IMG/VR virus record: IMGVR_UViG_3300037115_000244
Coordinates: 1-42,249 of that record
Strand: one strand, 5' to 3'
DNA length: 42,249 bases
From: a virus
Shown: positions 3,029 to 40,713 of the stretch, in pieces
How the letters are laid out: each line of letters opens with the position of its first letter
Position numbering within the stretch: the first letter of the stretch is position 1
Position numbers and translations under genes: made by a program
The notes under the pieces: model-generated
The model's input: only the letters and a program-made list of their open reading frames with translations
Databases searched by the model: none
Told to the model about the DNA's origin: nothing

Positions 3029-3592
3029 ATGGCAAGAAACGATCCAGAGACGGCCATCATCACGATGTACAGCGGGACGCATATCGACCTGCTGCATCCC
3101 GACCCGGCGCTGATCGTGATCGACGATATCGCCGCCGGGCTGAGCAAGATCAACCGCTTCTCCGGCGCGACCTTTCGTCCCTACACCGTGGCCGAACACT
3201 CGCTGCTGGGTGTGGAGCAGATCGTCCCGGAGAACCGCTTCAAATGGTTTACCCACGACTTCTCCGAGGCCTACCTCAACGACGTCGTCGGGCCGCTGAA
3301 GAACGTGCTGGGCATGGCCTTCTATCGCGACCTCGAGGCGGCGTGGGAGCGCGTGATCGCGGAGCGGTTCGGCATTCCTTCGAAGGGTGCCAAGGAAGTG
3401 AGGTCCGTCGACGGCCGCATGCTGGTGACCGAGCGCCGCGACCTGATGGGACGCCGCCCGCTCTCCACCGACCGGCACAAGCCGTTCGCCCTGCACCTGG
3501 CGGCCGCGGCGCCGTCGCAGGACTGGCTGCAACAGAACTTCCTGGCCACGTTCTACGCGCTGGCCCGGGACACCGAGGGTGCGCTGATCTAG
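3029..3592 (+). CDS. HD-domain phosphohydrolase (187 aa)
   Basis: Looks like the phage HD-superfamily hydrolases related to YfbR-type 5'-nucleotidases. The key residues are visible: R50-P51-Y52-x3-E56-H57-S58, then H76-D77 in F-T-H-D-F-S-E-A-Y-L-N-D with a further Asp at 85. These are the usual metal ligands. The family dephosphorylates (deoxy)nucleoside monophosphates, and in phages may adjust nucleotide pools, which fits its early position. Start at ATG 3029 is set by a clear AGGAGAGGA ribosome site at 3012-3020; the longer frame begins inside the previous gene. The substrate is not shown by the sequence. Confidence 0.85.
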   Translation: MARNDPETAIITMYSGTHIDLLHPDPALIVIDDIAAGLSKINRFSGATFRPYTVAEHSLLGVEQIVPENRFKWFTHDFSEAYLNDVVGPLKNVLGMAFYRDLEAAWERVIAERFGIPSKGAKEVRSVDGRMLVTERRDLMGRRPLSTDRHKPFALHLAAAAPSQDWLQQNFLATFYALARDTEGALI

Positions 3593-3673: not shown

Positions 3674-4084
3674 GTGAGCGAAGAGACGCAGGACGATAAA
3701 AAGGGGCCGAAGGTTATCAGCGAGCCCATCACCATCAACATCGGCAACGTCTGCGATGGCGCGGCTGTCGACGCATTCGAACTGAAGCTGCGCGAGTGTC
3801 TGGAGAATATCTGCGACCTGAACACGCCGGCCACGGCGTCGCGCACGGTAACCCTGAAGGTCAAGCTGAAGCCGCGCGAGGACCGGGTGCAGATCATGAC
3901 GGAGTTCACCTGCGAGGCGTCGCTGGCTTCGTTCGTGCCCAGGGTGGCGCGCCTCTTCATCGGGAGGGACGAAGAGGGACATCTCTACGGGCTGAAAGAG
4001 GATCCTCGCCAGCTCACCTTCTTCACGCCGCCCAAGACGCGCGAGGCGGAAGTGGTCAAGTTCAAGGCCGCGAAATCGAAGTAA
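3674..4084 (+). CDS. Conserved phage protein, 'replication terminator'-like annotation family (136 aa)
   Basis: GTG start at 3674 with a GAGGAGA ribosome site. Residues about 18-100 (I-N-I-G-N-V-x-D-G-A-A-V-D-A-F-E-L-K-L, then E-N-I-x-D-x-N-T and an alternating beta pattern T-V-T-L-K-V-K-L-K-P) resemble, from memory, small phage proteins that databases often label 'replication terminator protein', a label with no firm basis for function. The neighbours (the 4130 protein and ParB-like protein) form a recurring trio in such phages. No catalytic residues are apparent. Confidence 0.65.
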   Translation: MSEETQDDKKGPKVISEPITINIGNVCDGAAVDAFELKLRECLENICDLNTPATASRTVTLKVKLKPREDRVQIMTEFTCEASLASFVPRVARLFIGRDEEGHLYGLKEDPRQLTFFTPPKTREAEVVKFKAAKSK

Positions 4085-4984: not shown

Positions 4985-6940
4985 ATGAGCAGCGCTGAAG
5001 CATTGTTGAAGAATCTGCCGATCGAAATCCTCCAGGCATCGAGCACCAACCCACGCCAGCACTTCGATCGTGCCGGCCTCGACGAGCTGAAGGCCTCGAT
5101 CGCCGAGAGCGGCATCCAGCAGCCGCTGCTGGTGCGGCCAGTGTTCCTTGAGGACTGGGACGGCGGCCACGGCGTTGACGTTTACGAGGTCGTAGCGGGC
5201 GAGCGGCGGTTGCGCGCGGCGCAGGAGCTGGGGCTCGCGGATCTGCCATGCCTGGTGCGCGAGATGACCGATGAGGAGGCGCGCGAGGTCCAAATCATCG
5301 AGAACCTGCAGCGCGCCGGCGTGGCCCCGCTGGAAGAGGCGCAGGCTTTTGGTGAGCTGCTCGATCGGCTGGGCTCGATTCCAGCGGTGGCCGCAAAGCT
5401 GGGCAAGGAACAGAGCTACGTGGCGAAGTGTCTGCGGCTACGCTCGCTGACGCTGTGCTCGGCCGACGCGCTGCGCGGGCGGCTGATCACCATCGAGCAT
5501 GCGCTGCTGCTGGCGCGGCTGGCGGAGGTGGAGCAGAATGCGGCGCTGAAGTGGACGCTCGATCGCAATGCTGGATCCACGGTGAAGGTGGAGAAGGTCG
5601 TTGACGAGCGGCTGGCGCAGTTGAGGCAGTACGCGGACGATGACAGTAAGCCTTGGCGGCACTGGGTATGGGAGCCGGAGTCGGTCGCCAAGCTGAAGTC
5701 GCACATCGAGAGCGAGGGCGGCGTGAAGCTGAGCCGCGCGCCCTGGTCGCTGACCGAGGAAGATTACCTGCTGCCGGATGTAGGCCCGTGCGCGGAGTGC
5801 CCGAGCAACACCACTGCCAACACGCCGCTCTTCGGCGACCTGGAGATGGGCGAGCCAACCTGCACCGACGGCGCCTGCTTTGCGGCCAAGACGCAGGGCT
5901 TCGTCCAGATCGAGCAGCGCAAGGCGGGGCACGATGAGCAGGCCAAGCCGAAGGCGCTGGTACCGCAGTTGAGTTGGAAGTCCTCCAGCGTGAAGCCGAG
6001 TATCGTGTCGAACTTAGAAGTGCCGCTCTCGCCGACGCAATGGGCCGAGATGGCCAACCCGGCGAAGCTGTTGAAGCAGGGCCAGTGGGTCGAAGCCAAG
6101 ACGGGCAGCTGCACGAATGTGCGCCCCGGCGTGACGGCCGATTGGAGCGACGCTGGCCAGCGCGGCTACATGGGCCGCGAGGAGAAGCTGCGCAAGCCCG
6201 GCGAGACGCTGCAGGTGTGCATCGCGGTGGGCTGCAAGGTGCACCGCAAGGATTGGGAGAAGCCGAAGAGCGCGAACGGCAACCAGGCCGAGCGCCGCGA
6301 TCCGGAGGAAGAGAAGCGCCAGCGCGAGCAGGGCGAGTATCTCGCAAAGGTGGAACCGAAGATCCGCGCGAAGGTATTGAACGCGATCCTTGGCCAACTG
6401 GATGCGGCGCGGGCCATTCGCCTGGTGTCCGACAACCAGGACGGCGCTGCGGCGGTGCGCAAAGAGATCCTCACAGCGTTCCCGGGGGTTGGCGGCGAGC
6501 ACCTTGAGGCTCTCACGCTCTTCTACTTCGAGTTTCGCCGCTATCTCCATGCGAGCGCATATCACCTGATGCAGGCGGGAGGCATCGCGCAAGCGCGGAA
6601 AGAGCTCTGGGCGCTGGCGAAGCAGGTTGGGGTGAACGCCGACCAGGTCGCGGCGAAGCACTTCCACGATGCCGGCTCGATCGCGCCAGCGGCCGACAAG
6701 CTGTATCCGAAGGGCGTGCCGTGGCCGAAAGACGCCGGCGCTGCAGCAGCGCCCGCAAAGGCGACGAAGAAGGCAGCGAAGAAGGTGCCCGCGAAGAAAG
6801 TGAACAAGCATGCAGTAAAGCCAGCGGCTAGGCCTGCGCGCAGGACGCTGACGGCGGAGGGCCGCAAGCGGATCACCGACGCGATGAAGAAGCTCTGGGC
6901 GGAGCGGCAGAAGGCAGCGAAGAAAGGGGCGAAGGCATGA
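4985..6940 (+). CDS. ParB-like DNA-binding protein (651 aa)
   Basis: ParB/Spo0J-type N-terminal domain: N22-P23-R24, then G72-E73-R74-R75-x-x-A-A (the CTP-binding ParB box) and E106-N107-L108-Q109-R110. A KorB-like helix-turn-helix follows at about 115-190 (E-E-A-x-A-F... S-Y-V-A-K-C-L-R-L). Beyond residue 260 there is a Cys-rich part (C-x2-C, C-x5-C and others) typical of long phage ParB-like proteins, and the last 70 residues are Lys/Ala repeats (KKAAKK type) likely to coat DNA. Start is set by AGGAAGG at 4968-4974. At 651 aa it is about twice the length of chromosomal ParB. No ParA is visible, so a role in DNA replication or transcription is more likely than partition. Confidence 0.85.
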   Translation: MSSAEALLKNLPIEILQASSTNPRQHFDRAGLDELKASIAESGIQQPLLVRPVFLEDWDGGHGVDVYEVVAGERRLRAAQELGLADLPCLVREMTDEEAREVQIIENLQRAGVAPLEEAQAFGELLDRLGSIPAVAAKLGKEQSYVAKCLRLRSLTLCSADALRGRLITIEHALLLARLAEVEQNAALKWTLDRNAGSTVKVEKVVDERLAQLRQYADDDSKPWRHWVWEPESVAKLKSHIESEGGVKLSRAPWSLTEEDYLLPDVGPCAECPSNTTANTPLFGDLEMGEPTCTDGACFAAKTQGFVQIEQRKAGHDEQAKPKALVPQLSWKSSSVKPSIVSNLEVPLSPTQWAEMANPAKLLKQGQWVEAKTGSCTNVRPGVTADWSDAGQRGYMGREEKLRKPGETLQVCIAVGCKVHRKDWEKPKSANGNQAERRDPEEEKRQREQGEYLAKVEPKIRAKVLNAILGQLDAARAIRLVSDNQDGAAAVRKEILTAFPGVGGEHLEALTLFYFEFRRYLHASAYHLMQAGGIAQARKELWALAKQVGVNADQVAAKHFHDAGSIAPAADKLYPKGVPWPKDAGAAAAPAKATKKAAKKVPAKKVNKHAVKPAARPARRTLTAEGRKRITDAMKKLWAERQKAAKKGAKA

Positions 6941-8627: not shown

Positions 8628-8657
8628 CGTAGACGGAAGCAGAGAACGGGAGCAGTG

Positions 8658-9716
8658 ATGGCACAGAAGAGCAAGATCGAATGGACGGACGCGACGTGGA
8701 ACCCGATTCGCGGGTGCTCGCGCGTGAGCGAGGGTTGCCGCCACTGCTACGCCGAGACGGTGGCCAAGCGCTTCAGTGGAGCTGGGCTGCCCTACGAGGG
8801 GCTGACGACGCTCGGCAAGTGGAACGGCACCATCTCGTTTGTCGTAGAGCACATGCTCGATCCGCTGCGCTGGAAGCAGCCGCGCCGGATCTTCGTGAAC
8901 TCGATGTCCGACCTCTTCCACGAGAACGTCACGGACGAGATACTGGACCAGATCTTCGCGGTGATGGCGCTGTGCCCGCAGCATACCTTTCAGATCCTCA
9001 CGAAGCGGGCGGAGCGGATGCTGGCGTATCTGCGGATGGTCGAAGAAGAGAAGGACATGGAGCGGTGGAGACAGTATGCCGATATCTATGCCGGAGCGAT
9101 GCGGTGCACGGATTGGCCCGAGCCAGAGTGGCCGCTCCCGAACGTATGGCTGGGCGTCTCGGTCGAGAATCAGAAGGCTGCGGATGAGCGCATCCCGCTG
9201 CTGCTACAGACACCCGCTGCGGTGAGGTTCGTCTCTGCTGAGCCGCTGCTCGGTCCGGTTCAACTGGATGACATCGTTATCCAAGAAAAGCTGTGCGAAT
9301 GGCACTTCAGCGCGCTCGGGGATGATGGCAACGTGGAAGATGATGCGGACTTCCATGGTGCGCATCTCGACTGGGTGATCTGCGGCGGCGAGAGTGGCCC
9401 CGGCGCGCGTCCAATGCATCCGGACCGGGCTCGCAGCCTTCGCGATCAATGCGTTGCCGCCGGCGTGCCGTTCTTCTTCAAGCAATGGGGCGAGTGGGCA
9501 CCATTCTCCATGGCGAAGGTCCACGAGTTTCTCGAGGCCCATCCCGGATTGTCGATGAAAACGTCAACAACCCTCATCAAGCGCGACGGAACCCAAGTGC
9601 GGCCGTACTGCATGAAGGATGCTCCAGGTCATGAGATGGTTCGCGTGGGCAAGAGAGCCGCTGGCGATCTGCTGGACGGCGTGCAGTGGCATCAGTTTCC
9701 GGTGGTGCAACCGTGA
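8658..9716 (+). CDS. Phage Gp37/Gp68 family protein, radical-SAM-like (352 aa)
   Basis: N-terminus I-E-W-T-D-A-T-W-N-P-I-R-G-C20-x6-C27-x2-C30-Y-A-E is the diagnostic start of the Gp37/Gp68 family (Pfam PF07505, from memory). The three Cys could hold an iron-sulphur cluster as in radical-SAM enzymes. Later family blocks are visible: I-F-V-N-S-M-S-D-L-F-H, F-Q-I-L-T-K-R-A-E-R, W-L-G-V-S-V-E-N-Q, F-V-S-A-E-P-L-L-G-P, W-V-I-C-G-G-E-S-G-P-G-A-R-P, F-F-K-Q-W-G. The chemical reaction is not established. Start at ATG 8658; a GTG one codon earlier is possible. Confidence 0.9.
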   Translation: MAQKSKIEWTDATWNPIRGCSRVSEGCRHCYAETVAKRFSGAGLPYEGLTTLGKWNGTISFVVEHMLDPLRWKQPRRIFVNSMSDLFHENVTDEILDQIFAVMALCPQHTFQILTKRAERMLAYLRMVEEEKDMERWRQYADIYAGAMRCTDWPEPEWPLPNVWLGVSVENQKAADERIPLLLQTPAAVRFVSAEPLLGPVQLDDIVIQEKLCEWHFSALGDDGNVEDDADFHGAHLDWVICGGESGPGARPMHPDRARSLRDQCVAAGVPFFFKQWGEWAPFSMAKVHEFLEAHPGLSMKTSTTLIKRDGTQVRPYCMKDAPGHEMVRVGKRAAGDLLDGVQWHQFPVVQP

Positions 9717-9952: not shown

Positions 9953-10143
9953 GCGACGTGAGGGTGTTCGTGGAATCGGGGCCGGCCGGCGCGATCGTCT
10001 ACCGGCTCAACGCGTGGTGCAGCGTCTGCCGGAGTCACACCATGCTGCGCGCGGATCTCCCAGGGCCGGTGTGTGCGGTCTGCGGCTTGTCGGCGAGTTA
10101 CACGCTGACCGACCCTAAGGCGCGGCCGCCGGTGACCCATTGA
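9949..10143 (+). CDS. Small zinc-ribbon-like phage protein (64 aa)
   Basis: ATG 9949 overlaps the previous stop by ATGA. The protein has C-S-V-C and C-A-V-C-G, spaced like a zinc ribbon, in a short beta-rich sequence. An overlapping longer frame starting at 9619 is out of register with the Gp37/Gp68 gene and is rejected. Function unknown. Confidence 0.55.
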   Translation: MSDVRVFVESGPAGAIVYRLNAWCSVCRSHTMLRADLPGPVCAVCGLSASYTLTDPKARPPVTH

Positions 10144-10322
10144 AGCCGCGCTGGTGGACGTGTGGGTGCGGCAAGCGGAACTGCGCGACGGAGCTGGGCA
10201 CGCCGGTGTGCGCGGCGTGCAGGAAGCCCGCGAAGTTTTCGATCGAGCCGCCTGCTGGCCAGGGCGGCTTTGCTTTTCAGGATTGGCCCTCCGGTGATGA
10301 TGGGCCGCCCGACCAAGGGTGA
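10140..10322 (+). CDS. Small zinc-ribbon-like phage protein (60 aa)
   Basis: TTG start at 10140 overlaps the previous stop. C-G-C-G-K at residues 8-11 and C-A-A-C-R-K at about 25-28 form a likely zinc ribbon; the C-terminal half is Gly/Pro rich and disordered. Third of three adjacent CxxC mini-genes. TTG start and short length keep confidence moderate. Confidence 0.5.
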   Translation: MKPRWWTCGCGKRNCATELGTPVCAACRKPAKFSIEPPAGQGGFAFQDWPSGDDGPPDQG

Positions 10323-10373
10323 CGCAGCAACGATTTGAACCGCGCCAAGCGGTCGAAGGATAGGACGAAAGAT

Positions 10374-11468
10374 ATGAGCGGAATTCTTACGGGAGCGGTG
10401 TTGCAGCGGGGTCCGGAAGTGCTGCGCCCGCGCATGGTGTTGGTGGCGATCACGGAGGCGGCGGACGATCACGGCTTCGCCTGCCTGTCCATGGAGACGA
10501 TCGCGATGAAGGCAGTGTGCGAGGCGCGGACCGCACGGCGCGTGGTGGCGCGGCTGGAGCGCGAGGGTTGGCTCCTGGTGGTGCGCAAGGCCACGTCGGA
10601 TGGCAAAGGGAACGTGTACTTCGTGGACATTGCGCGGCTGGGCGTCGAGCTGAACCCGAAGTCGCGCAAGAATGACTGGCACCTGGCCTTCGAGCGGAAG
10701 TACCCGAAAGCGCGCTCGGCGAGGGTGCATGAGTCAGAGGACATTCAGTCCCCTAATGGTGACGTAACTCCAATGTCTGCAACGCCGGTAGAACCTCCAG
10801 AGGACATTCTGTCCCTTGAGTTTGGGGACGTCGAAGAAAGTGATGGTTCAGAGGACATGTTGTCCCCTGAACCTGACGGCGGCGAAAGCGACTCAGAGGA
10901 CATTTCAGGGGGGTTCAGAGGACATTTCGGGGGGGGTTCAGAGGACATTTCGGCGATTCCAATATTGAAGAACCGTGTGAACCGTTCCCGTGTTCCTTCA
11001 CGCGGCAAGCGCTCGAAGGCGGCGGACCCGCGGCATGTGCTGTTCAAGCTGGCCTGCGAGACCTATGCAAAGTTCAAGGGCGTCCGGTTGGTGTGGGACG
11101 GCTCGGAGGCAGGGGCACTGGCGCTGCTGCTGCGGGCGTCTCCGGAGTTGACCCTGCGCGAGTTCCAAATCTGCCTCAACCATCGGGCGCAATCTTCGGG
11201 AACGCCGCACGGCGAGCGCCCGAGGACGTGGCTCGCGACCATCACGCGGTACCAGCATGGCCCGCTCAACCGCTTCAATCGCACGGAGGAAAGCAATGGA
11301 CGCAATCTCGGGAATCGCAAGGCGGACGCCGCAAACGAATCTCTCGCGAGAGCTCAAGCCAGCGTCGTCGCGGAGGATCACGCTGATGAGCAAGCTGGCT
11401 TCGATGTGCCTGGACCGGGGCGAGGCGATGGACGAGGTTCGCTTGCAGAGCTACTCGAAAGCGCTTGA
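10374..11468 (+). CDS. Winged-helix replication initiator-like protein (364 aa)
   Basis: Residues about 1-100 are a winged-helix domain as in phage replication (lambda O-like/RepA-like) proteins: V-L-R-P-R-M-V-L-V-A-I-T-E-A-A-D-D-H-G, then E-T-I-A-M-K-A-V-C-E-A-R-T-A-R-R-V-V-A-R-L-E-R-E-G-W-L. The centre (about 120-205) is an acidic low-complexity part with repeated S-E-D-I/M-L-S-P, encoded by six DNA repeats. A helical domain follows at 220-310 and a disordered tail. The ATG at 10374 is preferred over TTG 10335 because the family begins there. Its 3' end overlaps the next gene by up to 173 bases. It probably binds the repeats and opens the origin. Confidence 0.75.
   Translation: MSGILTGAVLQRGPEVLRPRMVLVAITEAADDHGFACLSMETIAMKAVCEARTARRVVARLEREGWLLVVRKATSDGKGNVYFVDIARLGVELNPKSRKNDWHLAFERKYPKARSARVHESEDIQSPNGDVTPMSATPVEPPEDILSLEFGDVEESDGSEDMLSPEPDGGESDSEDISGGFRGHFGGGSEDISAIPILKNRVNRSRVPSRGKRSKAADPRHVLFKLACETYAKFKGVRLVWDGSEAGALALLLRASPELTLREFQICLNHRAQSSGTPHGERPRTWLATITRYQHGPLNRFNRTEESNGRNLGNRKADAANESLARAQASVVAEDHADEQAGFDVPGPGRGDGRGSLAELLESA
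10735..10948 (+). repeat. Six iteron-like repeats, candidate replication origin
   Basis: CAGAGGACAT (9/10 or better) occurs at 10735, 10798, 10849, 10894, 10916 and 10939, all on the + strand, with spacings of 63, 51, 45, 22 and 23 bases. In copies 1-3 the repeat continues into GTCCCCT/GTCCCTT, making a dyad; copy 3 (10847-10871) has 11-base arms with one mismatch. An AT-richer stretch (10955-10972) follows. Iterons within the initiator gene are the arrangement of the lambda origin. Confidence 0.6.
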
Positions 11469-11709
11469 GGAGTTTCCGGACGCGGCTATCGACGCGGTGC
11501 TGGACGGCTTGGCGAGGGCGCGACGGGAGGAGTACGAACCGCGCGTGCCGGAGAAGGGCGAACTGCTCGACCGGGTGCGCAAGGAAGCAAGGCGCCGGGA
11601 CCGTCCGAAGGACTGCGGGATCTGTGAGAATCGCCGGATGATCATCATGGAGGAGGGCGGGATGGCTAAGCGATGCGAGTGCTGGCTGGAATGGAAGCGG
11701 GCGAAGTAA
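11296..11709 (+). CDS. Helicase-loader-like replication protein (137 aa)
   Basis: Residues about 45-95 (Y-S-K-A-L-E-E-F-P-D-A-A-I-D-A-V-L-D-G-L ... P-R-V-P-E-K-G-E-L-L-D-R-V) recall the SPP1 G39P-type helicase loader/inhibitor pattern, in which a helical repeat ends in P-x-x-x-E-L. The C-terminus has C-G-I-C and C-x-C (residues 112-131), a possible zinc site. Being right after an initiator-like gene supports a loader role. ATG 11296 has a strong GGAGG; a second ATG at 11386 also has GGAGG and would shorten the overlap with the upstream gene. No ATPase motif is present. Confidence 0.6.
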   Translation: MDAISGIARRTPQTNLSRELKPASSRRITLMSKLASMCLDRGEAMDEVRLQSYSKALEEFPDAAIDAVLDGLARARREEYEPRVPEKGELLDRVRKEARRRDRPKDCGICENRRMIIMEEGGMAKRCECWLEWKRAK

Positions 11710-11782
11710 GCCCTCTTTTTAGGAACCAGCGTAGTAACACGTGGCACACGAAATCCACAACAGAGAAAAATAAAACAAAAAT

Positions 11783-11794
11783 CATTGGCCAATG
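11783..11794. promoter_or_regulatory. Perfect 12-bp palindrome in AT-rich gap
   Basis: CATTGGCCAATG reads the same on both strands and follows an A-rich run (11763-11782). It lies in the 271-base gap between the replication genes and the next gene. It is a plausible operator or origin-related site, without direct proof. Confidence 0.4.
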
Positions 11795-11816
11795 TTCACG
11801 CGGGTTTTGGAGTAGG

Positions 11817-11837
11817 ACTCCAGAAAACTGGAGTTTT
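11817..11837 (+). terminator. Short intrinsic terminator after the replication genes
   Basis: ACTCCAG (11817-11823) and CTGGAGT (11828-11834) form a perfect 7-bp stem with an AAAA loop, followed by TTT. It is short but well formed, and lies about 110 bases after the stop of the helicase-loader-like gene. Confidence 0.5.
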
Positions 11838-11980
11838 GGAGCGGAGAGCGCTTGACTTGGAAAATGTTGGCGTGAGAGTTTCTCAAATGAAGCCTAACGC
11901 GACCTGAAAGTGAAGCCTCGGCGGGGTCGAGGCAGTATCGAGGTTGGCGGCGGCGTCTCTAAAACTTCAGGTTTCCAATT

Positions 11981-12511
11981 ATGGCAAAACAACTTCCAGT
12001 GGTACCGGCAGATCTCGGCATCGTGCGCTCTGCGGAAGAGTTACTCGCGATGGATTCGTTTCCGACGTTGCGCTGGGTGTGGCCGCAGTCGGCGAAGCGG
12101 CAGGAGAAAGCTGGCAAGCTCCGCGCCATTCTCGATCAGTTCGGGGGTCTTTGCGCGTGGCAGGAGGTTGGAACCCCTGCGTTGCTGCGCGGCCAGGCTG
12201 GACGGGTGGAATATCGCGCGCCGAGCCCGGAGAAGTCGACGGCGATGCCGATCTTCGATCGCTCCAGCTGCTCGATCTCGCCGAGCGAGATGAACGTGTA
12301 TGCGGGACGGCACTTCAAGAACGGCGGCAGCCGCACCGCAGGATTGAACGACGAGCGCCGTGCCCAGCGCAAGTACTCCGACAAGCCCCTGAGCGAGGCG
12401 GAGATCCTTGCGGGACGCAGACAGAAGTTCGGCACACCGCCGGCTGAAGATTTCGTGGAGCGCGTGGTGGCTAAGGTGAACGCGTTTGAGCCGTCCCGCG
12501 CGGCCGCCTGA
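11981..12511 (+). CDS. Hypothetical phage protein (176 aa)
   Basis: Unknown. Soluble-looking and rich in Arg, Ala and Ser with a few Trp near the N-terminus (L-R-W-V-W-P). No convincing ribosome site precedes ATG 11981; ATG 12050 is an alternative. It stands alone after the terminator at 11817-11837, so it probably has its own promoter in the gap, which I could not place confidently. Confidence 0.55.
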   Translation: MAKQLPVVPADLGIVRSAEELLAMDSFPTLRWVWPQSAKRQEKAGKLRAILDQFGGLCAWQEVGTPALLRGQAGRVEYRAPSPEKSTAMPIFDRSSCSISPSEMNVYAGRHFKNGGSRTAGLNDERRAQRKYSDKPLSEAEILAGRRQKFGTPPAEDFVERVVAKVNAFEPSRAAA

Positions 12512-38866: not shown

Positions 38867-40713
38867 GGTGGTCCTTGAAAAAGTATTTCGTTGCCTTCGT
38901 TCTCCTTTTCTCCGCAGCTCTAGCTGGCGCACAACAGACGCAGATTGATCCGGCTCGCATCGGCTGGGGCGTGAACCCTGCTGGCACGGCGGCAGCACCA
39001 TTTATCTCACCCACGAAAACAGCTGCGCAGACAATGGCAGGGCCGCTGGATGGTATTTGGCCTAGCTCTGCGTTTGGCGTGAAATGTGACGGGGCAACAG
39101 ATGACACTACCGCGCTCAATTCCATCGGAACCTTTGCCTCGACCCTCCTCGCAGGAAATACAATCACGGTCAACTTTCCATCAAATGCCGTTTGCGTTCA
39201 TGCCAGCAGTATCACAACGTGGTTCGAACCGAATCTGCATATCCAAGGGCACGGCTCGCGCCTAAAGTTTACCGGGAGCGGGAAGCAGATTTACCTTCAC
39301 AACGCTACTCTCGGGGAAATTGATAACTTCTGGCTTGAGGGTTTCGTTTTGCAAGGAAATTCCGCATCGACCGATGGAGTTTATCAGGACACGGGTACAT
39401 GGGCAAGAGGTCGTCTTGATCTCATCAATGTGCAAGATCATAGTAATTCCTGTTATACGCTAGGCGATTATCAGTTGAACGAGAGAACTAATCTTATATG
39501 TTCTGCTATCAAAGCATCCACTATGGGGGTGATACAAACAACGGAACCGTCGTACGGCGTTGTCGCGGGAGGTACAGGGTACTTCGCAAACAATCGCGTC
39601 GTCAATCTTACGATAGAAAGTACCCTTTTGATCGGCTTAGAATGTGTCGTCTGCACTAACAGCAATCATTTCTACGGTACCGTAGAACATGGCGCTGGTG
39701 TGGGAATCACCGATGTTGGCGGTGTCTCAAATATATTTACTCTTGATCTGGAGAGCAATGCTGTTGCAGATGCAAATATCAGCGGTCAAAAGGAAATGTT
39801 TGAAGGGACCTACTCGCTTGGCACCTTCAATATTTTAGGGGGCGGTTCCTTCTCAACCGGCACACTCGATGGGGGAATCTATCAGTCCATCGTCATGCAG
39901 AGTGGGCATAATGCCTGGAACTTGAAGGGATTATTCTATAACAATAGTCAAACGAGCGGAACGGTGACTGGATACACGCCTCTTGATTGCCTTATCAATG
40001 TGCAGAATAGATCGCCGGGTTTTGCGAACATTACGAGCTGCCTGGGAGTTACAAATTCCGGTGCCGTCATCGGTTCCAGTGCTACGGGGGGAACGCTCAG
40101 AGTGGTTGGATTATCGGGTGCATCCTATGATTACACTTTGAGCACTGCTGTAGGCGGTGAGCTACAAATACTATCCAGTAAGTCGGGGGCAATACCGCTT
40201 ATTATGGATTCTCTCGGAGATATTGGAGTGGGGACTAATATAGTTTTTCCGAACACTGTAGGTGCCTACTTCGGAAGTGCTTCCGGTTCGCCCGTATTGG
40301 TTTCCGGCACTCCAGGGCCAGGCAAAACAATTGACGGAGGAGCGGGGGTGTGGACAGCATATTCGACCGTACCCGGCGCATGGACGCAGACAACTCCAAC
40401 CGCGACATGTCAGACTGGTGCGCTCACATCTTCCTCAACGACATTGCGTGTTAGTCAACAAGGAAAAACAGCTTCCTTTACAGCAAACATTACGCTTGTC
40501 CCTGGTACATGCGCCACAGGGCTTGTTGTTCCTCTCCCATTTACACCAGAACTTCACGGAGTGGCAGCTTGTACAAATTTCACGGCGGGAGCAGTCGCTA
40601 GTGGACAAGTTCAAGGCACTAGCCTTTATATTTACAACGCCACAGGCTACGCCCCCATCGTTGGCACTTCATCCCAAGAGATTGATTGCACCGGAACGGT
40701 GGAAACGCAGTAG
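38863..40713 (+). CDS. Beta-helix tailspike with N-terminal signal peptide (616 aa)
   Basis: ATGA overlap with the adaptor gene. Residues 1-23 form a textbook Sec signal peptide: M-R-W-S-L-K-K, then Y-F-V-A-F-V-L-L-F-S-A-A-L, then A-G-A|Q. Near residue 69, F-G-V-K-C-D-G-A-T-D-D-T-T-A-L-N is the pectate-lyase-type start of many tailspikes, followed by Gly/Asn/Ser-rich beta-helix turns to about 480 and a C-terminal beta domain with several Cys. It probably binds or cuts host surface sugar. Base composition is AT-rich (23 of 60 G+C in 39481-39540), unlike neighbouring genes, indicating recent acquisition. Confidence 0.85.
   Translation: MRWSLKKYFVAFVLLFSAALAGAQQTQIDPARIGWGVNPAGTAAAPFISPTKTAAQTMAGPLDGIWPSSAFGVKCDGATDDTTALNSIGTFASTLLAGNTITVNFPSNAVCVHASSITTWFEPNLHIQGHGSRLKFTGSGKQIYLHNATLGEIDNFWLEGFVLQGNSASTDGVYQDTGTWARGRLDLINVQDHSNSCYTLGDYQLNERTNLICSAIKASTMGVIQTTEPSYGVVAGGTGYFANNRVVNLTIESTLLIGLECVVCTNSNHFYGTVEHGAGVGITDVGGVSNIFTLDLESNAVADANISGQKEMFEGTYSLGTFNILGGGSFSTGTLDGGIYQSIVMQSGHNAWNLKGLFYNNSQTSGTVTGYTPLDCLINVQNRSPGFANITSCLGVTNSGAVIGSSATGGTLRVVGLSGASYDYTLSTAVGGELQILSSKSGAIPLIMDSLGDIGVGTNIVFPNTVGAYFGSASGSPVLVSGTPGPGKTIDGGAGVWTAYSTVPGAWTQTTPTATCQTGALTSSSTTLRVSQQGKTASFTANITLVPGTCATGLVVPLPFTPELHGVAACTNFTAGAVASGQVQGTSLYIYNATGYAPIVGTSSQEIDCTGTVETQ

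Follow-up and report, generated by a model that had tools for sequence, protein, structure and literature searches.

Our analysis indicates that the replication origin of a temperate soil phage very probably lies inside the phage's own initiator gene and works like ori-lambda and the O protein. The window, that is, the whole 42,249-bp stretch of DNA analysed here (virus record IMGVR_UViG_3300037115_000244), encodes phage head, terminase, portal-type and integrase genes, and its initiator gene contains six exact copies of CAGAGGACAT starting at 10735, 10798, 10849, 10894, 10916 and 10939 (whole span 10735-10948), with spacings between successive copies of 63, 51, 45, 22 and 23 bp (Table 1). An earlier note, made from the letters alone, had described six direct copies inside an initiator gene, the last three 22-23 bases apart and copies 1-3 extending to near-palindromes, and all of this holds: copies 1-3 are 19-bp dyads (8-3-8) of the form AGAGGACA-N3-TGTCC(C/T)(C/T)T, fitting AGAGGACA-N3-TGTCCYCT with 0-1 mismatch, and copies 4-6 are half-sites. 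No further mismatch-free CAGAGGACAT was found elsewhere in the 42,249-bp window, nor any other AGAGGACA-N3-TGTCCYCT dyad with fewer than four mismatches, nor a second cluster.

Table 1. Coordinates, in the window, of the initiator gene, its iteron array and the neighbouring elements.
Feature	Positions	Strand	Description
Initiator gene	10374-11468	+	364 aa from ATG; alternative TTG start at 10335 possible
Winged-helix (wHTH) DNA-binding domain, coding region	10377-10643	+	residues 2-90, AlphaFold2 model
Predicted recognition helix, coding region	10524-10562	+	helix residues 51-63 in the model; R55 codon 10536-10538
Iteron 1	10736-10754	+	dyad AGAGGACA-TTC-AGTCCCCT
Iteron 2	10799-10817	+	dyad AGAGGACA-TTC-TGTCCCTT
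Iteron 3	10850-10868	+	dyad AGAGGACA-TGT-TGTCCCCT
Iteron 4	10894-10903	+	half-site CAGAGGACAT, 45 bp past iteron 3
Iteron 5	10916-10925	+	half-site CAGAGGACAT, different codon phase, peptide FRGHF
Iteron 6	10939-10948	+	half-site CAGAGGACAT
G6 run (10908-10913) and G8 run (10929-10936)	10908-10936	+	flank iteron 5
Candidate unwinding/loading segment	10949-10986	+	ATTCCAATATTGAAGAACCGTGTGAACCGTT, tandem GAACCG; putative function
Overlapping downstream gene	11257-11709	+	150 aa, candidate helicase loader; overlaps the end of the initiator gene

We confirmed that the array is real, far beyond codon-preserving chance and confined to the initiator gene. Specifically, none of the 5,000 synonymous-codon shuffles of the gene (two codon models) had six copies of an 8-mer or a 10-mer within 260 bp, and 168 pairs of 7-mers repeated within 250 bp were observed whereas 2,000 shuffles averaged 56 and never exceeded 101. 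The local-repeat z of the gene relative to synonymous shuffles was 10.7, and a dyad-spacing periodicity test gave a broad peak near 11-12 bp.

The assignment of the gene as a winged-helix initiator, also made in the earlier note, is backed by both sequence and structure. Its N-terminus (residues 1-118 only) matches PHROG 391 'replication initiation O-like' (E=6.8e-9) and also PHROG 270 (E=7e-7), and the AlphaFold2 model has a confident winged helix and a helical C-terminal part (residues 219-272). Viral fold matches of the model are phage HTH proteins, a replication protein O among them, and many wHTH proteins of the PDB align at Z 8-10 (VIA-align), including 4pt7 'Structure of initiator' (Z 8.4, residues 6-90). 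The protein at the array was said to be a low-complexity acidic linker, and this linker is indeed acidic and predicted to be disordered (pLDDT <50 nearly throughout residues 119-215). Several searches returned nothing: neither tblastn with the initiator nor distant blastn with the region matched any of 50,697 phage records, a scan of viral contigs with the initiator peptides alone found no relatives, and a PDB sequence search with the wHTH gave nothing convincing. A Pfam scan of the initiator found no plasmid Rep domain (Rep_3, RepA_N), only a sub-threshold HTH_36.

Repeats in a coding sequence could reflect the peptide rather than the DNA, that is, an acidic low-complexity SEDI repeat selected in the linker. 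Such protein repeats exist elsewhere, and five of the six copies share one codon phase; however, the codons are identical in all copies and the copy at 10916 is in another phase, being read as FRGHF instead of SEDI. Because one copy is read in another frame, it is the DNA, not the peptide, that is kept. Recent duplication could also yield near-identical neighbours, and the DNA-level argument therefore rests mainly on relatives, in which the same DNA is read as QRTF or SQVTK, the linker peptides are unrelated (L003 and L282), and genes with GGACA dyads use all frames. A peptide-level origin of the repeats, in the main refuted by these frame data, is thus very unlikely, and we favor selection on the DNA. 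Compensating length changes (a slippage pair) in the G6 and G8 runs would explain the frame of iteron 5 with the gene left undisturbed, judging from the sequence. G runs similar to this pair separate iterons in L194, L088 and L187 as well, and slippage at G runs may be how frames shift without altering the DNA array. A true peptide-level repeat, contrasting with the iteron arrays, was encountered in L004 (4384-5286), where an 18-bp unit (GGWIKA/GDGIEA) is repeated in frame 17 times within one ORF.

The comparison that the earlier note had proposed, in which the repeats should persist in relatives while the linker varies, has been run, and its claim that DNA rather than protein is selected is borne out by the out-of-frame copy here together with the frame differences in L371 and L347, which keep the layout but differ in frames and peptides. 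These relatives were chosen by wHTH sequence only (L347 was initially found via its AGAGGACAT repeats and again by its wHTH). L371, whose wHTH is 51% identical to that of the window, has AGGTGACA sites arranged as dyad, +45, +23, +22, compared to dyad, +45, +22, +23 in the window, and the third element is out of frame in both (SQVTK in L371, FRGHF in the window). L347 (wHTH 42% identical; L302 and L374 do not differ from it in sequence) has AGAGGACA sites at 0, +21, +44, +22, one of them out of frame (peptide QRTF), and another C-terminus; a 35-nt stretch spanning two copies aligns between L347 and the window with one 1-nt gap, yet the peptides differ. The mix of dyads and half-sites, which had been noted as unlike the lambda array, is real and recurs in relatives. 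GTGACA dyads were found in L372 and L375.

Relatives that share the terminase were partly found via their repeats and hence serve as illustrations, not as statistics. The terminase of L003 is 92% identical to that of the window, and the C-terminal domain of its initiator is well conserved relative to the window's, but the wHTH and linker differ and the iterons are GGTCTGTGAGACC. L282 combines a window-type C-terminus with an L003-type wHTH and GTCTCAGAGAC iterons, and L024 and L179 have the wHTH and site of this L003/L282 group but another C-terminus. In these combinations the wHTH and the iterons travel together and the C-terminus separately; with site and binding domain in one gene, both would be able to move jointly by recombination. 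In L016, L019, L022, L025, L032 and L055, too, the corresponding part of the initiator carries an array, a different one in each.

To assess how broadly such arrays occur, we went through several hundred bacterial genomes and picked initiators solely by PHROG 391/270, regardless of repeats. Local repeats at z>4 vs. synonymous shuffles were present in 15 of the 28 initiators so picked, compared to 3 of 137 other ORFs of the relatives. Lambda O, the positive control, gave z=7.6, with iterons in codon phases 0, 2, 2 and 1, and TP901-1 rep, a further control, showed no array excess (z=1). Paired GGACA-N3-TGTCC dyads were found at a minimum of 120 viral loci, and 94 of the 120 loci listed sit in an ORF of at least 150 aa. 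Among 58 non-redundant genes of initiator-like geometry, GGACA dyads fall in the three frames 67, 33 and 66 times, and 35 of these genes use at least two frames. The 59 aligned proteins (window included) match PHROG 270 in 36 cases, 428 in 30, 678 in 29 and 391 in 25, all of which are replication-initiation families. A fixed 3-nt dyad spacer was considered for all initiators but is not universal, since the PHROG-picked set is enriched for spacers of 3 to 6; the N3 spacer is claimed only for the window subfamily and the GGACA/TGACA groups. The remaining 26 of the 120 listed dyad loci (L059-L178) have no overlying ORF of at least 150 aa and may be second origins, operators or chance occurrences. 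One further locus, L073 (1-600), is a very long GGGACAYAAYGWCC array that opens a 48-kb contig and is not obviously within an initiator gene.

The link between protein and site is most evident at a single residue of the predicted recognition helix. We placed genes with GGACA sites (G set) and genes with TGACA-N3-TGTCA arrays (T set) in a common wHTH alignment and, for the mutual-information test, formed clusters with the recognition helix masked. At three clustering levels, no column was more informative about site type than that of R55 (mutual information 0.68, 0.65 and 0.74 vs. 95% null maxima of 0.43, 0.46 and 0.58, respectively); the coarsest clustering, with 14 clusters, had no power. Among 62 dereplicated proteins, residue 55 was hydrophobic in 0 of 35 of the G set vs. 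19 of 27 of the T set (Fisher p=5e-10), and it was Arg in 11 of 35 and 0 of 27, respectively; the R52 column was Lys in 18 of 35 of the G set and in 0 of 27 of the T set. One alignment column with z=20 turned out to be an artefact of low null variance, and raw mutual information and Fisher tests were used instead. Beyond both sets, the window, L347 and L318 have Arg with GGACA, and L371, L372, L375, L016 and L032 have Met/Ile/Val with GTGACA, although seven of these eight cases preceded the wording of the rule and hence serve as illustrations, not as a test.

Part of this signal could stem from shared ancestry. However, a concentration of the signal in the DNA-contacting helix is what direct recognition would predict, and residue 55 appears to explain site choice better than overall wHTH similarity does. 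The idea that overall similarity dictates the site proved too simple: L371 (51%) is nearer to the window than L347 (42%), yet it has the other site, and a Mantel test of wHTH vs. site similarity gave a positive yet weak correlation (r=0.21, p=0.001, n=26). The covariation between residue 55 and the bases links the protein with the sites of the gene that encodes it, and it supports the view that the initiator probably binds the array; it indicates that the protein reads the sites, not that replication starts there. In the open literature, which is what the search covered (subscription journals lay outside its scope), we found neither the residue 55 code nor a frame-free survey described before.

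Two readings that place the origin elsewhere, or assign the array to another protein, need to be weighed. In the first, the initiator binds the array as an operator or a copy-number/titration site (autoregulation, handcuffing). Autorepressors too bind their own gene, dyads are typical of operators, and the AT bias after the array is weak; nevertheless, we consider this reading unlikely, given that the array is found 360-570 bp from the start of the gene, that no promoter-like site was found in 10000-12000 (the scan covers the sigma-70 type only), that the copies are phased, with a conserved tandem element behind them, that a second cluster is absent from the window, and that known origins occupy the same position in lambda (PMC7466680) and SPP1 oriL (PMC6316719). 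In the second, the array would serve as a centromere-like site to which a ParB-like protein of the phage binds, the 651-aa product of window 4985-6940 with ParB_N and HTH_ParB (the phage encodes an integrase too). Some replicons use repeats as parS-like sites, but sites of this gene class covary with the recognition helix of the initiator itself, and many unrelated initiator genes share the architecture, including that of lambda, which is not known to have a ParB. A centromere is hence extremely improbable, and we retain the origin as the preferred reading. The GC skew of the window was uninformative on the replication start.

The segment that follows the array gives a mixed picture. The earlier note had mentioned an AT-richer stretch after the repeats, and this stands for the first 50 bp past the array, with 48-50% GC (lowest 5-7% of the window), but the bias is weak and short, as GC reaches 58-64% by 100-200 bp past the array; the array itself has 53% GC (lowest 5% of 250-bp windows). 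A strong A-tract like that of lambda was not found in the window's post-array segment, although in all three sets the coding strand is richer in A past the array than over the remainder of the gene. L371 carries CCTATATTGAAGAACCATAAGGAACC at the place of the candidate unwinding/loading segment, and a tandem GAACC-type element lies at most 100 nt past the array in 10 of 27 initiators, compared to a shuffle mean of 2.1 and maximum of 7. Separately, a C-tract pair right after the array was observed in 13 of 27 initiators vs. 2.6 expected; such pairs (CCCCCACACCCCC-like, often followed by a TATAGG-like sequence) occur in L003, L016, L024, L179, L199, L282 and L371, from high-GC phages.

Under the model proposed here, the initiator would bind the sites in its own gene via its N-terminal winged helix, as dimers on the dyads and, on the half-sites, which are two helical turns apart, as monomers or as subunits that cooperate, and would wrap the array into a nucleoprotein complex on phased sites. 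The adjacent ATTCCAATATTGAAGAACC segment would be destabilised or opened by the initiator, whose C-terminal domain would recruit the product of the downstream gene, which in turn would load the host DnaB-type helicase. We infer these opening, loading and initiation steps by analogy with known systems. L003 and L282 encode homologues of the downstream product, 28-31% identical, in the corresponding position, and the structure that this product matches best is the lambda loader P in complex with DnaB (82 residues aligned at Z 7.6, which is below the tool's caution level of Z 8); one G39P-like phage protein is among the weak viral fold matches of the downstream product. No sequence family was matched by the downstream protein, and a PDB sequence search with it gave nothing convincing. 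Based on these structural models, the gene possibly encodes a P/G39P-like loader, and the arrangement of the two genes is suggestive of an O-P type pair.

Elements of this architecture are known from model systems. In lambda, iterons and an AT-rich tract lie in the middle of O, and O binds the iterons as well as AT-rich single strands (PMC7466680). In SPP1, gp38 binds repeats within gene 38 and gp39 then loads the helicase (PMC6316719). The window resembles lambda in that the iterons lie midway through the initiator gene (at 39034-39118 of the lambda record) and are read in several codon phases, in a spacing of 20-24 bp, in an N-terminal DNA-binding domain and in an overlapping downstream gene (the loader gene P in lambda, a candidate loader here). 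It differs in having 19-bp 8-3-8 dyads plus half-sites where lambda has four 18-bp iterons, in its upstream spacings of 45-63 bp, and in a tandem GAACCG/AATATT element instead of a long A-rich tract. Orthology to lambda O is not claimed, as phmmer of lambda O against the window protein gave no hit at E<=100. SPP1 gp38/oriL likewise has direct repeats in the initiator gene, which gp38 binds, along with an AT-rich unwinding element and the ensuing loader gp39 (PMC6316719), the corresponding segment and loader of the window being candidates, but SPP1, compared here from the literature, also has oriR outside the gene, whereas the window is without a second array. The O-like (pro)phage initiators of PHROG 391/270 resemble that of the window in the N-terminal match and in the arrays found in about half of them (see above); they differ in that each subgroup has its own iteron, the window subfamily having dyads upstream and half-sites beside the putative unwinding segment. 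In iteron plasmids, repeats about two helical turns apart are bound by winged-helix initiators and mixed inverted/direct sites are known, but the iterons are normally outside the rep coding region, and Pfam detected no plasmid Rep domain in the window initiator.

While the lambda-type architecture was already known, and the mixed array with its readable code is a variant of it, what is distinctive here is the recurrent layout of dyads followed by half-sites, the frame independence across relatives and the residue 55 code. More broadly, we consider it somewhat better than an even chance that a large class of phage initiators consists of self-contained protein-DNA pairs, with linker iterons in any frame, a fixed subfamily layout (i.e., dyads, half-sites at +45/+22/+23, then the GAACC tandem) and a residue 55 code (i.e., Arg with GGACA; Ile/Leu/Met/Val with TGACA). 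Initiator-embedded origins are known from few model phages, and many uncultured phages show this design. Since the layout survives changes of site, peptide and C-terminal domain, origin specificity could, if the hypothesis is true, be predicted from protein sequence alone, and since each gene supplies one protein together with its site, the pairs need no guessing. Such pairs could be used to read how initiator specificity changes, to find the origin of an unknown phage by its sequence alone, and to see how coding sequence tolerates fixed DNA sites.

Finally, a few other genes of the window matched known families. A 136-aa protein (3674-4084) matches PHROG 997 'replication terminator' (E=7e-17), the product of 8655-9716 is a DUF5131/PHROG 2045 protein (E=1e-116) with a weak GP88 match, and 3029-3592 encodes an HD-type deoxyribonucleoside 5' monophosphatase (PHROG 318, E=3e-48).
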